IMG/VR virus record: IMGVR_UViG_3300022220_000020
Coordinates: 1-24,815 of that record
DNA: 24,815 bases
Direction: 5' to 3' (one strand)
Source of the DNA: a virus
Shown here: positions 1,536-24,275 of the stretch, one piece after another
Layout of the letters: each line of letters opens with the position of its first letter
Position numbering within the stretch: position 1 is the first letter of the stretch
Program-made: the position numbers and the translations under genes
Notes under the pieces: model-generated
What the model was told of the DNA's origin: nothing
Database searches by the model: none
Seen by the model: only the letters and a program-made list of their open reading frames with translations

Positions 1536-1634
1536 TAGAACAGTTGCGGTCGAAACATAGGCAACTTAAAGGAATTTTAATAGACCCTTATAATGAAAGC
1601 AGCTTCGACCCTGTTGGATTTATGAGGGTTTTTT
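1536..1634 (+). ncRNA. Candidate structured phage RNA (pseudoknot plus terminator)
   Basis: A roughly 95-nt non-coding stretch between a -7 promoter element and a T-run. Stem P1 pairs AGTTGC (1542-1547) with GCAACT (1561-1566). The first seven loop bases, GGTCGAA (1548-1554), match TTCGACC (1604-1610) perfectly, giving an H-type pseudoknot that would stack on P1. The 3' end is a 10-bp terminator hairpin whose loop holds 1604-1610. An alternative pairing joins AACAG (1539-1543) to CTGTT (1611-1615), extending the long-range helix to 12 bp with a 4-nt bulge and excluding P1. It could be a stand-alone small RNA or a leader/attenuator for the replication gene at 1647. I recognise no known RNA family. 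Pairings are seen by eye; folding energy was not computed. Confidence 0.6.
1584..1634 (+). terminator. Rho-independent terminator upstream of the replication gene
   Basis: ACCCTTATAA (1584-1593) pairs with TTATGAGGGT (1620-1629), ten base pairs with one G-U wobble, followed by T6 at 1629-1634. A competing shorter hairpin pairs ACCCT (1608-1612) with AGGGT (1625-1629). The next gene starts 12 nt after the T-run, so replication-gene expression would need read-through or an unseen start. Confidence 0.7.
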
Positions 1635-1646
1635 AATTAATAACAA

Positions 1647-2420
1647 ATGACTAAACGATTAGGATATACATTCTACCCAAAAGATTGGCGGAGTGATGAC
1701 AAAATAATTATGCTTAACGCAGAAGAAAGAGATATGTTTAGGTTCTTTATTGACGAGTGTTACATAAAAAGTTCAGCAAAACTTGAGTGGAACTTAGGTT
1801 ATCTTCGCAGAATCTTGGGGCATAACAAGCAAAAAGTTGAAAGAATCTTTAAAGTTTTATGCAACTTTGAGTTAGTTTACCAAGAGGGCGATTACATTGT
1901 TATCCCTAGTGTTATCAGTAGATTGGGTTACGTTGAAGAGAAAGTTCAAAAGGGTAAATTAGGAGGTTTAGCTAAGAGTAAGATTGTAGCTAATAAGAAA
2001 GAGAATATAAAAGAGAATATAAAGGAGAAAGAGAAAGAGAAAGAAGAAGAAGAAGATAACCGACACCGCCAAATAATTGAGTTAGCTAATGATTATAAAA
2101 AAAATGAACGAGTGATCAACGCAGTTCTTAAAAATGGTCAGCAGTTAGCATTTAGCAAAGAAGATTTACTTGCAAAACTTGATGAATTTGTTTTACATTT
2201 GGAATCCACAGGAGAAACTATTAAGACAAAAAAAGACTTCAATACACATTTCTTAAATTGGCTAAGGGTTAAAAAGAAAAAAAGTTCAGAAAAAAGTACT
2301 AAACCAACACCTGCTGAAAAGGTATTTGGTGAATATTACGAGGAAGCAAACACAATAGCAAAACAATTAAACAACTTAACAATTTTAAAAAATGAGCAAG
2401 ATAAAAGAATCACAGGATAA
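1647..2420 (+). CDS. Phage replication initiation / helicase-loader type protein
   Basis: A 257-residue two-domain protein. Residues 1-95 look like a winged-helix DNA-binding domain of the DUF1376/DUF4373 kind seen in phage replication proteins (start GYTFYPKDWRSDDKI). Residues about 112-138 are a Lys/Glu repeat hinge. Residues about 140-215 resemble the DUF7833 C-terminal module, ending in KDFNTHFLNWLR (197-208). Such proteins bind the phage origin and help load the replicative helicase, like DnaD/DnaB-type primosome proteins. That role is inferred from domain order and from the neighbouring SSB-like gene. It follows the structured RNA/terminator and overlaps the next gene by 29 nt. The exact family names are from memory. 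Confidence 0.65.
   Translation: MTKRLGYTFYPKDWRSDDKIIMLNAEERDMFRFFIDECYIKSSAKLEWNLGYLRRILGHNKQKVERIFKVLCNFELVYQEGDYIVIPSVISRLGYVEEKVQKGKLGGLAKSKIVANKKENIKENIKEKEKEKEEEEDNRHRQIIELANDYKKNERVINAVLKNGQQLAFSKEDLLAKLDEFVLHLESTGETIKTKKDFNTHFLNWLRVKKKKSSEKSTKPTPAEKVFGEYYEEANTIAKQLNNLTILKNEQDKRITG
1995..2056 (+). repeat. Purine-rich simple repeat encoding a Lys/Glu hinge
   Basis: Imperfect tandem copies of GAGAATATAAAA, GAGAAA and GAA run in frame through the replication gene and encode alternating KEN/KEKE/EEE residues. Almost every base on the + strand is A or G. It is a typical slippage-prone, length-variable linker between two folded domains. Confidence 0.7.
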
Positions 2421-9788: not shown

Positions 9789-11030
9789 ATGGCAACAGTA
9801 GCAACTTACACAAACACCAATCCTGACATTGGAATTTATGGACTTTACAATCCTTTTGCAGTAATAATTTCAAACGATGGAGCAGCAAGAGCAAACCTGA
9901 CATTTAGAATTAGGGTTTCAATAGATGGCATAGCAGACACAGAAGTTGTAAGAGATGTTACACCAATTGGTCAAGCAGTAGTTGTAGAGCCTTTTAAATT
10001 GTTGCAGGATACGTTCTTTGAATCAAACTTTGACTTCCTTGCATTATCGCCTAATTCGTTTAACTTAGTAAAGATTGAGGTTGGTCAATCAAGTTCACCA
10101 ACTGTTGTTCCTCCTGCTGAAGGTGACCCTGTTCCCCCAACATTTCAAGGTTATGTATCTGCTCAGGAGAAATCTTTTTACGTTTACAACGGATATGAGA
10201 ATCAACCTGTGGCAATCAATTACAGAGATTTTTATTGGTATAATTTTGAGCCAATCAAACTACCAAAGATAAAGCAGGATATTTCATTGCTTACAAATGA
10301 CACAGAAAACCTTTCTTATCCAAATCAATTTAGGGGGTTTTACGATAGCACAGATTCAATATTAACTGCTACAAATGTCATCACTACATTCCACAGATTA
10401 AATGGTTCGGAAATTACAGGAACTGCAACAGATGTAGCAATTGGAGAACCTACTGCGATAGGATATGCAAGGCAGAATCTAAATTTACTTGATGCTTCAA
10501 TTCCTGCGGCTGCGTCATCTTGGAAGATACTAATACGTTATACAAGTGAAGAAGATGTAACATTTGATTCTGAAATAATAACAGTAAGAAGACAGGATTG
10601 CAATCCGAAACAAAGCAACCACAGATTGTATTGGGTTAACAGATACGGAGGTGATGAATACCAAAACTTTACAATGCTATCTGAACAAAGTTTAAATATA
10701 ACGAAGGGTAAGCGGATTCAAAGTGATGGCATAAACTACAAAGCCACAACATTCACAGATATTCAAAACATCAATAACCCTAACATTCAGGAGTTCGGTA
10801 ATTCAGCGACAAGAAACATTGTTTTACGAAGCGATTACCTTTCACAAATTGAGGTTGATGCTTTGGCAGAATTATACAAGTCAGCTATTGTGGTAATGTT
10901 TGACGATGATGGAACGCATCCGATGGTTGTAACAACTACAAGCTACCGAATAGTCAGCGTTCAACAGGAACTTTACAAGGTAGAGGTAAACCTACAATAT
11001 GCTAATAACGAATTAATGCAGATTCAGTAA
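9789..11030 (+). CDS. Putative tail structural (distal-tail-like) protein
   Basis: A 413-residue beta-rich protein with no signal peptide. Features include a Pro-rich linker (about 105-119) and a segment LYWVNRYGGDEYQNFTM (281-297) of a kind common in tail proteins of Bacteroidota phages. A beta-strand C-terminus (VTTTSYRIVSVQQELYKVEVNLQYA) resembles the wall-forming domain of distal tail proteins. It starts immediately after the preceding stop (TAAATGG) and abuts the large tail gene at 11031. A distal-tail or baseplate role is inferred from order and composition. Confidence 0.55.
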   Translation: MATVATYTNTNPDIGIYGLYNPFAVIISNDGAARANLTFRIRVSIDGIADTEVVRDVTPIGQAVVVEPFKLLQDTFFESNFDFLALSPNSFNLVKIEVGQSSSPTVVPPAEGDPVPPTFQGYVSAQEKSFYVYNGYENQPVAINYRDFYWYNFEPIKLPKIKQDISLLTNDTENLSYPNQFRGFYDSTDSILTATNVITTFHRLNGSEITGTATDVAIGEPTAIGYARQNLNLLDASIPAAASSWKILIRYTSEEDVTFDSEIITVRRQDCNPKQSNHRLYWVNRYGGDEYQNFTMLSEQSLNITKGKRIQSDGINYKATTFTDIQNINNPNIQEFGNSATRNIVLRSDYLSQIEVDALAELYKSAIVVMFDDDGTHPMVVTTTSYRIVSVQQELYKVEVNLQYANNELMQIQ

Positions 11031-13303: not shown

Positions 13304-14845
13304 ATGGCACAAATATTAGAAGTAAAAACAGTAGTTGAAACAAAAGACGCTGAAAAAAATGTTCAAGATTTAGAAGAAGGAATTGAAGGTGCAGGAGAGG
13401 CAACTAATCAACTGACAGGTTCTTTGGATAAAATGACAGGCGGAGCAATTACTGCTTTTAAAGGAATAGTTAAAGGAGTAAAGTCAGGAGTGATGGCTAT
13501 GAGGACTCTTAAAGGTGCTATTGCAGCAACAGGAGTTGGTTTGTTAGTTATTGCAGTTGGTACATTGGTTTCATATTTTAAAAACACACAAAAAGGTGCT
13601 GACTTGTTAGACCAAGCTTTTGCAACAATTGGAGCAACTATTGATGTTTTGATTGATAGGGTTTCTTCTTTTGGAGAAGGGTTATTTAAAATTATTAAAG
13701 GAGATTTTTCTGAAGGTTTAGATATTTTGAAAGGTAGTATGTCAGGAATTGTTGACGAAATAAAAAATGAATCAGCAGCAGCATTGCAATTAGAAAAAGA
13801 TTTTCAAGCATTAGAAAAAAGAAGAATTGATTTTATAGTTACAGAAACTAAATTAAGAGCAGAAATTGAAGCATCAAATTTAGCGGCTGATGATTTTACG
13901 AAGTCAGTAGAAGAAAGAGCAGCAGCAAATGAAAATGCAATAAAAGTTGAAAAACAATTAGCTGAAGAAAGAATTGCACAAACAACAGAAGAATTAAGAA
14001 TCCTAACTGCAAAAAATGAATTAGGCGAATCAATGAACGAAGACGTTGAAGCGCAAAGGGTTTTAGAAGCAAGACTTTTTGAAATTGAAACTAACAGAGA
14101 TAAGAAATTAAAAGCAATGTTGGCAAAGCAAAAGTCAATAACATCTGAATTAAATAAACAAAGCGAAATAAGACCTGAAAGAGAAATATTAGAACCATTA
14201 GAAACTATGGAAGCTGCTCCATTGTTAAGTCCTGAAGGAGAAGTAAGACTTTCACAAGAAGAACATCTTTTAAGCCTTTTAAAAACTTCAAATGAAATAT
14301 TTCAAAAAGAAAAAGTTGGAATTGATATTGCATCAGCAAAATTTAGTGCAGACCAAGAAGAATTAATTCAACAACAAAAGCACGAATCAATAATGAAAAT
14401 GACTCAATTAGGGTTTGACATTGCTTCAACACTTGCTAAGAAAGGAAGTAAAGAAGCCAAAGCAATAGCAGTTGGTCAAGTTTTATTTGATACTTATAGA
14501 GGAATACAATCAGCATTTGCACAAACCACAGATGTTTCTCCTACTCAAACTATGCGATTTATTAATGCAGCATCAGCAGCAGTTTTTGGTTTTGCTAATG
14601 TTAGAAAAATATTATCTACACCAACAACAGGCGGAGGTGGAGGTTCTGCTCCAAGTGTTAGCACAGGTGGAGGTGCAAGACCATCAACAGAAGTTCCAAG
14701 AATACCAAACTTTGCTGCAATGAATGAAGGTGTAGGTGGAAGAAGTGGATTTGGTTCAGTTAGGGCAGTAGTAATTCAGCAGGACATCAAAGATTCTGCA
14801 TCCTTAGATAACAGGGTTGATGACCTTGTAAAGATTGGGAAGTAA
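13304..14845 (+). CDS. Tail tape measure protein
   Basis: A 513-residue protein with tape-measure features. It has a Gly/Ala/Val-rich N-terminal region, a hydrophobic segment (about 71-91), a long alpha-helical coiled-coil middle (about 150-285) rich in Glu, Lys and Ala, and a Gly/Ser-rich C-terminal stretch (about 437-470). It sets tail length and is expelled during DNA injection. At the usual ratio of about 0.15 nm per residue it implies a tail near 75 nm. Unusually, it lies upstream of the capsid genes and far from the tube-like gene at 17258. The next gene is convergent, with the two stop codons abutting. Confidence 0.8.
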   Translation: MAQILEVKTVVETKDAEKNVQDLEEGIEGAGEATNQLTGSLDKMTGGAITAFKGIVKGVKSGVMAMRTLKGAIAATGVGLLVIAVGTLVSYFKNTQKGADLLDQAFATIGATIDVLIDRVSSFGEGLFKIIKGDFSEGLDILKGSMSGIVDEIKNESAAALQLEKDFQALEKRRIDFIVTETKLRAEIEASNLAADDFTKSVEERAAANENAIKVEKQLAEERIAQTTEELRILTAKNELGESMNEDVEAQRVLEARLFEIETNRDKKLKAMLAKQKSITSELNKQSEIRPEREILEPLETMEAAPLLSPEGEVRLSQEEHLLSLLKTSNEIFQKEKVGIDIASAKFSADQEELIQQQKHESIMKMTQLGFDIASTLAKKGSKEAKAIAVGQVLFDTYRGIQSAFAQTTDVSPTQTMRFINAASAAVFGFANVRKILSTPTTGGGGGSAPSVSTGGGARPSTEVPRIPNFAAMNEGVGGRSGFGSVRAVVIQQDIKDSASLDNRVDDLVKIGK

Positions 14846-15034
14846 CTAATTGCTTTGAATCCATTCGTAAACTTCAGAAGCCAAATAATAAGGTGCTGCG
14901 TTTGTCGGTTTGTGAATGGGTAAACCTTTCTTAACGTAGTTGTCAATCGTTCTTAAAGAGCATCCTATCATCTCGCAGACTTCAACCTTCCTGAGTATTT
15001 CCAAGTCTAAAAAGTATTTTATTGGTTTTGCCAT
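14846..15034 (-). CDS. Small HTH DNA-binding protein, MerR/excisionase-like
   Basis: The only convincing minus-strand gene. It has 62 residues with a MerR-N/HTH_17-type fold: a first helix VEVCEMIGCS (18-27), then the recognition helix LRTIDNYVKKGLPIHK (27-42), and a wing ending YYLASEVYEWIQ. Such proteins act as excisionases or small repressors/activators. Its start at 15034 lies in one arm of a 10-bp inverted repeat whose other arm precedes the capsid-operon start, so it may regulate itself and the head genes. Its stop abuts the tape-measure stop. The regulatory role is inference. Confidence 0.8.
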   Translation of the reverse strand: MAKPIKYFLDLEILRKVEVCEMIGCSLRTIDNYVKKGLPIHKPTNAAPYYLASEVYEWIQSN

Positions 15035-20712: not shown

Positions 20713-21258
20713 ATGGCAGTAACAATTCCCTTACTTATTGGATTAGATGACCTAAAGTTTTATTTGGGCATCACAGAAAACTTTGATTCAAGACTTTTAG
20801 AACCTTTGGTAATTCAGTCAACAGATTTAGCAGCACAGAATGTACTCGGAACGGCTTTGATGATCAAGCTGAGAAACGATTATAATTCAAACACCTTAGC
20901 AGGATTATATCAAGAGTTATATGATAGCGACAAGGCATCAGTTATGAAGATGATAATTTGGCAAACGTATGTTATGGCACTTCCGAGAATGCTTTATAAG
21001 ATAGGTGCTGAAACTATTTCAATCGGAGATACTGACGAAGTAACTTCAATCGGTTCTGATGAATTGGGTAATATGCAAAGACAAGCAACTGCAAGTAAAG
21101 TATTTTATGAAAATCAAGTAAAGAATTACTTGACACAGAACTACGGAAACATTCCTGAATTAGCAGTTAACACTCCTGAATATATCAGAAGCAACAGAAC
21201 AGAAAGCTATTCTTCGCAAGGAACGACATATACAACAAACAAAAGATACGACATATAA
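20713..21258 (+). CDS. Head-tail connector protein (DUF6712/gp6-like)
   Basis: A 181-residue mainly helical protein. An N-terminal segment IGLDDLKFYLGITENFDSRLLEPLVIQSTDLAAQ (about 9-42) resembles connector/adaptor proteins of the HK97 gp6 and DUF6712 kind. A long second helix region (KASVMKMIIWQTYVMALP) and a Tyr/Ser/Thr-rich C-terminus follow. It would bind below the portal to extend the DNA channel and seal the head. It lies immediately after the portal, 11 nt downstream, and shares TAATG with the fibre gene. The family name is from memory. Confidence 0.65.
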   Translation: MAVTIPLLIGLDDLKFYLGITENFDSRLLEPLVIQSTDLAAQNVLGTALMIKLRNDYNSNTLAGLYQELYDSDKASVMKMIIWQTYVMALPRMLYKIGAETISIGDTDEVTSIGSDELGNMQRQATASKVFYENQVKNYLTQNYGNIPELAVNTPEYIRSNRTESYSSQGTTYTTNKRYDI

Positions 21259-22493
21259 TGGCAGCAACTAATATAACCTTTGACGATAAAATTTTAGGAC
21301 AAGCAAACGCACTTCCTGAAAACAAGAAATTGACATTTACCAATGCTAACGAAATTAAGTCAGTTGTAAATAATAACGCAACAGAATTAACATCAACGCA
21401 AAGTAATGTTGCCACAAATACAAGCGGAATAGCTACTAATGTAACAAACATTGCTACGAATGTGACTAATATAGCTACAAATACAAGCGGAGTTGCTGCT
21501 AACTTGTCAAGTATTGGAACTAACACAACAAATATTGCTACCAATGTAACTAATATAGAAAACAACGGCACAAGTATAGCAACAAATGTATCTAACATTG
21601 CAACGAACACAACAGACATTACTACGAATAGAAATGATATTGCCACGAATGTATCAAACATTTCTACAAACACAACCAACATTGCTACCAATACTTCAGG
21701 CATTGCAACGAATGTTACTAACATAGACGCAAACACTTCAGCATTAGCAGGAAAAGCAGATTTGACAGGAGCAGTTTTTACAGGTTCGGTTACTTCGCCT
21801 GACTTCATTGGAGATTTAAATGGAGCAGTTAGATTTGAAGCAAAAAATACAAGTGGTTCAACTTTATTAAAAGGAAAAGTTGTAGCGATTACAGGAGTTA
21901 GCGGAAATGAAACTTTGGTTGATTTAGCAGATGCAGATGATGTAGCATCAAGACCTGCTTTTGGTTTAGTTTTCGCAGACGCAAATAACAACGCAGGTTG
22001 TGAGGTTGTGACTCTTGGAAATTTATCAGGTTTAAATACTTCGTCATTTAGTGAAGGTGATACAGTTTACGTTGACACAACGGCAGGAGAATTAACTGCA
22101 ACTGCCCCAACAGGAGAGGCTGCGGACATTCAAAACATAGGTAGAGTAATTAGAAGCCACGCAAGTTCAGGGATAATTAGAGTTGGAGGAGCAGGAAGAG
22201 CAAACGCAACACCTAACCTAAATTCTGCAAAGATGTTTTTAGGAAACGCATCTAATCAATCAGCATCTGTTGCAATGAGCGGAGATGTTACAATTGACAA
22301 TACAGGAGCAACTACAGTAGGAACGATTAATTCAGTTGCAGTTGCCACAGTTACAAGCGGTGCAGCTTTAGGAACAACTTCAATTCAGAAGAACGTAGGA
22401 ACTACCTACACAACAAATGCAATAACCACAGTAACGCAGGCAGAGTATGATGCTTTGACACCTGTTGCAACGACAATTTATTTTATTATCTAA
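21258..22493 (+). CDS. Trimeric tail fibre with Asn-core coiled-coil stalk
   Basis: A 411-residue protein. The N-terminus (1-36) is probably the attachment region. Residues 51-162 are 16 consecutive heptads of the form [I/V]xxNxxx, with Ile or Val at position a and Asn at position d in every repeat, as in trimeric autotransporter stalks. Residues 163-330 are beta-rich, starting KADLTGAVFTGSVTSPDF. The C-terminus ends with TQAEYDALTPVATTIYFII, a closing motif common in phage fibre proteins. It likely forms a trimeric fibre that positions the adhesin encoded next. The start is coupled to the connector stop (TAATG). Confidence 0.75.
   Translation: MAATNITFDDKILGQANALPENKKLTFTNANEIKSVVNNNATELTSTQSNVATNTSGIATNVTNIATNVTNIATNTSGVAANLSSIGTNTTNIATNVTNIENNGTSIATNVSNIATNTTDITTNRNDIATNVSNISTNTTNIATNTSGIATNVTNIDANTSALAGKADLTGAVFTGSVTSPDFIGDLNGAVRFEAKNTSGSTLLKGKVVAITGVSGNETLVDLADADDVASRPAFGLVFADANNNAGCEVVTLGNLSGLNTSSFSEGDTVYVDTTAGELTATAPTGEAADIQNIGRVIRSHASSGIIRVGGAGRANATPNLNSAKMFLGNASNQSASVAMSGDVTIDNTGATTVGTINSVAVATVTSGAALGTTSIQKNVGTTYTTNAITTVTQAEYDALTPVATTIYFII
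21408..21743 (+). repeat. Sixteen degenerate 21-bp repeats in the fibre gene
   Basis: In-frame repeats of 21 bp encode the 16 heptads. The codons for Ile-Ala-Thr-Asn vary (ATAGCTACTAAT, ATTGCTACGAAT, ATAGCTACAAAT), so the protein repeat is conserved better than the DNA. Apparent minus-strand frames across it are mirror shadows. Confidence 0.85.
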
Positions 22494-22494
22494 T

Positions 22495-23298
22495 ATGAAA
22501 TTAGGAGCAAACGATGTAAGTGCAGTAAAGATTGGAGCAACAGATGTAAACAAGGTCTATCTTGGAAGTAATTTGGTTTGGGAAGCAGGTGGTTCTATCT
22601 TAGACTTTAGTCCATACAACGTATGGGATTCTGAACACGTTTCTATAGTAGGAACAACCACAACCTTTGAAGATTTCAATGATGTTGGAACTGCTTATGA
22701 TTTAACTAATCCTGCCGCAACAAATCAACCTACATATAATTCTTCTGACTCTGATTTCGGAGGATTACCTTCAATTACTTTTGATGGAATTGCGGAGTAT
22801 GTAAGAAGAAGCATTACTAATTATAGAAATTCAGACAGTAGCGGTTTAGTTGTTGGGGTTTTACTAATAGAGTCAGGTAGTAACTTTGATTTTTTGGGGT
22901 CTACGGGCTTGTCTTCAAGTGAGATTATGGGTTCTGCAAGAATCATAAGTAACAAATATAGACCAAGAATAGCCAACGGTTCTTTTGATAACAGAATTTC
23001 AGCGAGTACTACCACAATAGGCACGTTAACTCCTTATGTATTTACATTTGCCTCTACTGCTTCTGAATATAAGATAACTATTAACGGAGTTCAGCAATCT
23101 ATTTCCGTTTCTTTAGGTAATAATGACGGGAAGTGGTACGATGACATATCTGTCAAAAATATCGCAGTAGGTTTATTGCCTTCAAGAAATCTTTACTCTA
23201 ACATTACATGGTGTATGTCAGGATACTTTCCTTATGTAAGCGATTCTAAAACTATTGAAATTGCAAACTTTTTAAAGACGAAATATGGAATTAGTTAA
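22495..23298 (+). CDS. Tail adhesin with lectin-like (LamG/ConA-type) domain
   Basis: A 267-residue protein started at ATG 22495, 1 nt after the fibre stop; ATG 22465 would overlap the fibre gene by 29 nt. The N-terminus has three short repeats (LGANDVSAV, KIGATDVNKV, YLGSNLVWE), a motif widespread at the start of phage tip proteins. Residues 45-267 have the beta-sandwich pattern of concanavalin-like lectins (LPSITFDGIAEYVRR, YKITINGVQQSISVS, and the closing ANFLKTKYGIS). Binding of host surface glycans is the likely role. Confidence 0.7.
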   Translation: MKLGANDVSAVKIGATDVNKVYLGSNLVWEAGGSILDFSPYNVWDSEHVSIVGTTTTFEDFNDVGTAYDLTNPAATNQPTYNSSDSDFGGLPSITFDGIAEYVRRSITNYRNSDSSGLVVGVLLIESGSNFDFLGSTGLSSSEIMGSARIISNKYRPRIANGSFDNRISASTTTIGTLTPYVFTFASTASEYKITINGVQQSISVSLGNNDGKWYDDISVKNIAVGLLPSRNLYSNITWCMSGYFPYVSDSKTIEIANFLKTKYGIS

Positions 23299-23515
23299 TG
23301 GGTGGATAACACCGACAATAGAAGCTTACGAAGCTAAACAGACAGAGCTAGGAATAGCTTATAATATAAATTCGCCAAGATATGCAGGAAGTATTGTAGA
23401 CGGAGTTGTTCATCCTGATGTTGAGTTAATAACAGGAGGTTATTTTATGCGAGATATTAAAGGACTTGGAGTTGATAACATTACATTTGCGGATATAAAA
23501 CAAGAAGAAATATAA
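23285..23515 (+). CDS. Small hypothetical protein after the adhesin (76 aa)
   Basis: A 76-residue protein that overlaps the adhesin by 14 nt. It begins with WITPTIEAYEAKQTELG and has a central GGYFMRDIKGL segment. No membrane span, Cys cluster or signal peptide is visible. By place it could be an adhesin partner or chaperone. Function unknown. Confidence 0.55.
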   Translation: MELVNGWITPTIEAYEAKQTELGIAYNINSPRYAGSIVDGVVHPDVELITGGYFMRDIKGLGVDNITFADIKQEEI

Positions 23516-23524
23516 CTTTACACA

Positions 23525-23839
23525 ATGGAGCAGTTTTTAGAATTAACAAACAAGCACGGATTTAGCACAGTAATAATTGCAGCTTTGATATTTGGTTTTA
23601 TTGTAAACTATAAGAAAATTACAGGGTGGATTGTAGCAACGATTCAGGCAGCAGCTATTGTAAGAAACCACGAGGAAACGATTCAAGAACTAAAGGAAGA
23701 AATTGCAGTTTTACGAGCAAAGTTGGAAGAGTATAATGCTATCCTTATGAAGCAAACTGAAACTATTGCAAGGTTGGAGGAAAGAATTGTATTGACTGCT
23801 AAGAAAAGAGTATCTAAAAAGAAGCCAAATGAAGATTAA
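23525..23839 (+). CDS. One-TM coiled-coil lysis protein (holin- or i-spanin-like)
   Basis: A 104-residue protein. Residues 12-28 (GFSTVIIAALIFGFIVNY) form a membrane span, 33-46 a second weakly hydrophobic helix, and 48-92 a coiled coil rich in Glu and Leu, with a Lys-rich tail. The single N-terminal span plus coiled coil matches the layout of inner-membrane spanins such as Rz, but small phage holins can look similar. It is immediately upstream of the endolysin (11-nt overlap), supporting a lysis role. Confidence 0.6.
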   Translation: MEQFLELTNKHGFSTVIIAALIFGFIVNYKKITGWIVATIQAAAIVRNHEETIQELKEEIAVLRAKLEEYNAILMKQTETIARLEERIVLTAKKRVSKKKPNED

Positions 23840-24275
23840 AGAATATTTTAGCATTAAGGAATTGGTAGATGAGAATGTTTACAATCGTTACGGAGAAGGT
23901 GCTTGGAAGTTCTTTGATGATAAACTGCTTGAATGTTTAGTTATAATTAGGGAGCATTTCGGCAATCCAATCACGATTAACAATTGGGCATTTGGAAGTA
24001 CATTTAGTCAAAGAGGTTTGCGACATAATCAAAGTCCGATGGTACGCAATAAAAAAAGCATCTATTTAAGCGCTCATATGATGGGTAAGGCATTTGATTT
24101 TAATATTGAAGGGGTAACACCAAATGAAGTTAGAGAGTGGATTAAAACGCACCCTGATAAGTTTCCTTGCAAAGTTAGATTGGAACGCAATTTGAAAGGC
24201 AGTCCAATTAATTGGGTACACTTAGACGTTTACCAAGATGCAAAGAATCCGAAGGTTTATTTATTTGATGTATAA
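23829..24275 (+). CDS. Endolysin, peptidase M15-like
   Basis: A 148-residue protein of the M15 D-Ala-D-Ala carboxypeptidase / L-Ala-D-Glu peptidase type. The zinc ligands are H83 and D90 in SAHMMGKAFDF (the SxHxxGxAxD motif) and H131 in WVHLDV. R62 and the residues before it (FSQRGLRHN) fit the substrate-side Arg region. It cleaves peptidoglycan cross-links at the end of infection. No signal peptide is visible, so export should depend on a holin. It shares TAATG with the next gene. Confidence 0.88.
   Translation: MKIKEYFSIKELVDENVYNRYGEGAWKFFDDKLLECLVIIREHFGNPITINNWAFGSTFSQRGLRHNQSPMVRNKKSIYLSAHMMGKAFDFNIEGVTPNEVREWIKTHPDKFPCKVRLERNLKGSPINWVHLDVYQDAKNPKVYLFDV

Follow-up and report, generated by a model that had tools for sequence, protein, structure and literature searches.

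A promoter-coupled kissing-loop RNA of flavobacterial phages with a built-in terminator and a probable role as a cis-acting leader

Sequence comparison suggests that phages of flavobacteria encode a compact RNA that acts in cis as a self-terminating leader (attenuator), so that the gene behind it would be expressed only by read-through. The probability of this reading is put at about 0.65, and the RNA probably gates the expression of the genes that follow it. Structured leaders that contain terminators are already familiar as a general kind of element. What is new is the RNA family and its host group, together with a terminator whose tip and the first hairpin of the transcript are joined through a covarying kissing helix.

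The window, meaning the whole stretch of DNA that was analyzed, is a 24.8-kb virus record (IMGVR_UViG_3300022220_000020, positions 1 to 24,815) with single-strand-binding, NinG, terminase, and tail-type genes. The 124 bases between an ORF stop at 1522 and a gene start at 1647 consist almost wholly of one element on the plus strand. It opens with the -7 promoter element TATCTTTG (1528-1535), which is of the Bacteroidota type. In F. johnsoniae the -7 element has the consensus TAHHTTTG and transcription starts 4-5 nt past it (PMC6847099). The same spacing here would place the 5' end of the RNA at P1, with a predicted start at 1540-1541. P1 is formed by AGTTGC (1542-1547) and GCAACT (1561-1566), and its loop contains the 5' arm of the kissing (pseudoknot) helix, GGTCGAA (1548-1554). 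A single-stranded A-rich linker (1567-1582) follows, with the conserved motif AAAGGAATT at 1568-1576. The terminator stem P2 (1583-1593 and 1620-1630) and the apical helix P3 (1598-1602 and 1611-1615) are separated by a 4x4 internal loop, UGAA (1594-1597) opposite GGAU (1616-1619), and the P3 loop holds the 3' arm of the kissing helix, TTCGACC (1604-1610). The U-run at 1629-1634, whose first two bases are paired at the base of P2, marks the predicted 3' end. A stem of 11-12 bp directly adjoining U6 has the sequence form of an intrinsic terminator. P1, P2, P3, and the kissing helix are mutually compatible, and they therefore describe a kissing loop that joins the first hairpin and the terminator tip. 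From its predicted start to the U-run the RNA would be about 95 nt long, compact, and released after termination.

Much of this anatomy was present in a first-pass annotation, which described a compact RNA ahead of a replication gene, with a pseudoknot and with a promoter and a terminator of its own; as a prediction from sequence this description holds. The promoter box and P1 are present as it placed them, and the complementarity that it noticed between 1548-1554 and 1604-1610 is exact and also covaries across relatives. Its terminator stands with regard to the stem, the U-run, and the position 12 nt before the ORF, but what it drew as a 10-bp hairpin is better described as P2, the 4x4 loop, and P3. 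A 10-codon ORF (MKAASTLLDL) is found inside the RNA at 1593-1625, and relatives are without it. A leader peptide (ATGAAAGCAGCT...) within the RNA was rejected because it is not conserved and several members have no ATG there. Elsewhere in the window, a 62-aa ORF with a small helix-turn-helix (excisionase-like) look lies between structural genes (14846-15034, minus strand). A 268-aa open frame (21185-21991, minus strand) runs antisense to a repetitive ORF (21258-22493) and is probably a shadow of the repeats of that ORF.

All four helices covary in an alignment of 31 sequences. Standard pairs make up 96.8% of the pair cells, compared to 70.5% in shuffles, and changes on both sides are seen at 28 of the 30 pairs, including those of the kissing helix. 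The observed covariation was reached by none of 500 shuffles. When the partner was slid by one to three columns, pairing fell to 34-50%, and no slid version exceeded 50%. The kissing helix provides the cleanest test, since the alignment was fitted to the nested helices; the covariance model, which recovered many more members, was built without it, and 95.9% of its cells are paired. The forms found include GGTCGAA/TTCGACC, AGTCGAA/TTCGACT, GCTCTCAC/GTGAGAGC, and GGTTTGGC/GCCAAACC. The window element itself has a predicted fold with a z score of -3.16, and none of 200 shuffles was as stable. A strict scan for the whole architecture, designed after the window had been seen, gave one match in the window and none in 2.43 Mb of dinucleotide-preserving shuffles. 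Covariation in related phages had been named beforehand as the test on which the RNA should stand or fall, and it was looked for and found. A second, exclusive fold proposed at the same time, between 1539-1543 and 1611-1615, fared differently. Its pairing in the homologues is 68.3%, versus 66.9% in shuffled columns, and 220 of 500 shuffles matched or exceeded it. It can be drawn in the window, but with a 4-nt bulge (1544-1547), and 1611-1615 is part of the covarying helix P3.

The RNA does not belong to a cataloged family. The 4227 families of Rfam release 15 gave no match at the gathering cut-off for the window or for 12 further loci, in agreement with the initial impression that no known family was present. 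The best sub-threshold result was RF04312 trpB (20.6 bits against a cut-off of 59, E 0.66), and the trpB, snR65, and SpF51 alignments obtained with relaxed thresholds, with E values of 0.66-5.4, were rejected. A search of the open literature found no description of such an RNA. The manA and wcaG RNAs reported from cyanophages and marine metagenomes are likewise structured RNAs of marine phages, and manA commonly lies in potential 5' UTRs of varied genes (PMC2864571), but these are distinct RNAs and no Rfam model matches here.

The same design is found in 43 curated phage loci, and relatives of the replication protein of the window carry the same RNA upstream. Two later pattern sets gave 20 and 14 distinct loci (34), representing two subtypes and partly overlapping phages already counted. 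Members in named phages were found with a second covariance model, with the kissing helix checked by eye. Tenacibaculum phage Gundel_1 has two copies, one of them ahead of an antirepressor gene, and Flavobacterium phages snusmum6-1 and hattifnatt9-1 have three each. The RNA also occurs in Flavobacterium phages lillamy9-1, 11b, FCL-2, and elemoC_14-1A, in Olleya phage Harreka_1, in Polaribacter phage P12002L, and in Croceibacter phage P2559S. The carriers are viruses of marine and freshwater flavobacteria. No member was found in crAss001, B124-14, phi14:2, phi38:1, Colly_1, Peternella_1, P12024S, phiSM, or the Listeria phage control. Weak model matches in phiST, most of the matches below 30 bits, and five loci (L281, L282, L177, L259, and L119) were rejected, as they lack either the kissing helix or the terminator. 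Copies within one phage differ in their kissing sequences, which are GCTTCGAC, GTCGTCG, and GTGGAACG in snusmum6-1 and GCTCTCAC and GTAGGATTC in Gundel_1. Such differences would be in keeping with an intramolecular contact in which the copies are kept from pairing or recombining with each other.

Cellular genomes contain very few members. With strict filters, a match was found in one of 46 genomes from the order of one carrier, in one of 397 sampled from one family and centered on an Aquimarina genome, and in none of 395 sampled across the phylum, a sample that held no known positive. The absence from host genomes is only suggestive, but the near-absence from the sampled genomes makes the RNA look like a phage element. 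When genome contigs were scanned with a loose pattern, a single true match emerged, in a Vicingaceae genome (L199). Contig C9 of G001, a Vicingaceae genome, has two copies 1.85 kb apart (22262-24230; L284 and L279), one ahead of a DNA methylase gene and the other ahead of a replication-type gene. This contig is probably a phage contig.

The spacing of the RNA is constrained toward its promoter and toward the gene behind it. All 45 parsed members have a TAHHTTTG-type -7 box, a few with one deviating base, and the distance from box to P1 is mostly 5-6 nt. Of the 43 loci, 41 have a strict box ahead of P1. The two later pattern scans did not contain the promoter, yet 34 of 34 of their loci have both an ORF behind the RNA and a TAHHTTTG-type box, with one position of the box allowed to vary. 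At the other end, the U-run has five or six T in its best six bases in 43 of 43 members, and an ATG ORF on the same strand begins 4-41 nt past it in every locus (median 13, quartiles 10-19). The gap to the upstream gene is scattered, from -3 to 337 nt. Among the unpaired parts, an AAR..ATT-type motif occurs in 27 of 35 linkers, compared to a mean of 5.6 and a maximum of 12 in shuffled linkers. UGAN and NGAU occupy opposite sides of the P2-P3 internal loop in most members, and they would permit tandem sheared G.A pairs. In snusmum6-1 (L288, 9705-9819) and hattifnatt9-1 (L289, 9355-9469), the annotated helicase start (9791 and 9441, respectively) lies within the RNA, on the 3' side of P2. These annotated starts are probably too early; in snusmum6-1 an alternative start at 9827 would fall just past the U-run. 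In Cellulophaga phage Ingeline_1 (L320, 38149-38291), a transcript start behind a TATATTTG box pairs long-range with a terminator-like stem that has an extra inner hairpin. The idea is similar to that of the window RNA, while the architecture is different.

Genes behind the RNA are mostly related to replication or DNA modification or encode antirepressors or HNH endonucleases. In the window this is a probable replication protein gene (1647-2420, plus strand, 12 nt past the U-run) with a weak match to phrog_1408 and a C-terminal DUF7833. Other downstream proteins include replication-type proteins with DUF6291, DUF7833, or Lin1244_N, a Prim-Pol/DUF3987 primase, a BT4734-like protein, N6 and N4 DNA methylases, a superfamily 2 helicase, an AntA/ANT antirepressor, a pentapeptide protein, and small proteins of no known function. 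The first-pass annotation had offered two readings, an independent small RNA or a cis switch or attenuator controlling replication. A cis attenuator is favored by the ORF spacing and by the lack of a second promoter, but specificity for replication is not supported, as this RNA also stands before genes for helicases, methylases, antirepressors, and homing endonucleases and before uncharacterized genes. One subtype has the kissing arm GTCGTC and a P1 of GTAG/CTAC (L135, 8296-8398, minus strand; L323 in snusmum6-1, 13646-13749; L344-L369). NUMOD4/HNH or GIY-YIG-like homing endonucleases are behind eight of its ten tested loci, and the RNA and the gene may therefore move as one cassette. A protein of 78-79 aa (MNTISVQGFKIDINHF...) is also recurrent behind this subtype (L350, L351, L355, L358, and L362).

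Several known systems share parts of this arrangement. Type III toxin-antitoxin systems of the ToxIN kind have the same order of promoter, pseudoknotted RNA, terminator, and ORF, and their gene is made by read-through. However, each locus here has a single unit with no tandem repeats of the pseudoknot, model matches are not in tandem, and none of 40 downstream proteins (30 examined with Pfam, 10 with PHROGs) matches an RNA-cleaving toxin family of the ToxN, CptN, or TenpN type. The c4 antisense RNA of phage P1 (RF01695) pairs with the ant leader; it is also small and encoded by a phage, and its closeness to an antirepressor gene recalls the arrangement in Gundel_1. In contrast, the present RNA has no Rfam match, and most members are not beside antirepressors. 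The T4-type homing endonuclease genes I-TevI, segB, and mobE also have an RNA structure just before the ORF and a promoter beside it; their hairpin sequesters the ribosome site and blocks expression from read-through transcripts, while late transcripts avoid it (PMC2988022). Here the terminator lies in the path of every transcript, even the one begun at the promoter of the element, and the genes served include replication genes. Among attenuators and transcriptional riboswitches, the crcB and pfl motifs have a terminator that overlaps the conserved fold, competes with it, and differs from one representative to another (PMC2864571). They resemble the phage RNA in being structured 5' leaders with a terminator before the ORF in many contexts, but in the phage RNA the conserved fold includes the terminator, the terminator tip pairs with the first hairpin, and no competing helix was seen.

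The close ORF and the missing second promoter favor a cis-acting leader. As in an attenuator, leader and gene would share a transcript, the leader coming first and no promoter box separating the two (43 of 43 ORFs, 0 of 43 boxes between P2 and the ORF). The downstream gene lacks a promoter of its own and stands behind a terminator. Provided that the promoters follow the known consensus, it can therefore be expressed only through read-through. The predominance of DNA-metabolism and homing genes behind the RNA also supports a cis-acting leader, and differing kissing sequences within one phage are expected of an intramolecular contact. Since most phage genes run in one direction, the shared strand by itself carries little weight. 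A classical two-state switch is not shown either, as no conserved antiterminator helix was found. In the proposed mechanism, RNA polymerase would start about 5 nt past the -7 box, at P1, which would fold first. P3 would then emerge and its loop would kiss the P1 loop, a structure shown by covariation. P2 would close beneath, and transcription would halt at the U-run, freeing the RNA. Read-through into the gene 4-41 nt downstream could be a fixed leak set by the fold, or a factor from the phage or the host could act on the fold and switch it; the conserved linker and the UGAN/NGAU loop make switching the more likely of the two. The terminator would also shield the gene from transcripts that run on out of the preceding operon.

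The main rival is an independent small RNA acting in trans, for example on the host RNA polymerase, a host nuclease, or a host mRNA, with the gene behind expressed by ordinary leakage and its closeness reflecting phage compactness. The fixed promoter-to-P1 spacing is predicted equally well by this explanation. A 5' end in P1 and a 3' end in the terminator would yield a protected product, and the conserved single-stranded linker and the several copies per phage are also consistent with it. It is nevertheless unlikely, because no stand-alone copy was found, a close same-strand ORF follows in 43 of 43 and 34 of 34 loci, and the 43 loci have no second promoter box. In addition, the loop sequences turn over freely and thus offer no conserved target seed, and homing-endonuclease genes accompany one of the subtypes.

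A ligand-sensing riboswitch would be one particular form of the cis-acting leader. The conserved linker would join with the internal loop and the kissing helix to make a pocket, and termination would depend on whether the ligand is bound. The RNA has a conserved core with covarying helices, as riboswitches do; this core is compact and pseudoknotted with conserved unpaired positions, and it heads many different genes of one process. A riboswitch is rather improbable, however. No alternative antiterminator pairing was found, as the predicted folds of 16 members cut before the 3' arm of P2 share no alternative to P2. The tested targets include no metabolic gene that would name a ligand, and the RNA is nearly absent from the three sampled sets of Bacteroidota genomes, unlike most metabolite riboswitches.

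Antitermination by polymerase modification is a highly doubtful explanation. The put RNA of phage HK022 is a leader RNA at operon fronts, and a similar RNA here would bind the elongating polymerase and let it run through the built-in terminator and through others further on. A single phage can have the RNA at the head of several operons, unpaired bases are conserved, and the downstream gene needs read-through. However, put consists of two hairpins and promotes passage, while the phage RNA has a terminator built into its fold, and the U-run kept in 43 of 43 members looks like selection for stopping; no polymerase partner is known. Finally, chance complementarity around an ordinary operon terminator has a negligible probability: hairpins and promoter-like words are common in AT-rich DNA, and E. 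coli-type promoter matches were about as many as in shuffles, but that scan was uninformative (it used the wrong promoter type, and it missed the window terminator because its rule covered only loops of 3-8 nt), while covariation in the 31-member alignment refutes chance and the recurrence across many phages and the empty 2.43 Mb of shuffles also argue against it.

Within the cis-acting leader reading, it is possible, although tentative, that the RNA represents a new class of phage device in which the contact between P1 and the terminator tip is sensed or stabilized by a specific factor of phage or host, so that one signal opens several genes. If so, the replication, modification, and homing genes of one phage would be opened together by one signal. 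Very little is known about gene timing in phages of Bacteroidota, and no RNA of this kind has been cataloged. Because the element is small, well defined, widespread, and found in cultured phages, and has a tertiary contact that covariation supports, its termination, read-through, and trigger are directly testable. It may also serve as a compact tool for setting expression in hosts that are without Shine-Dalgarno sequences.
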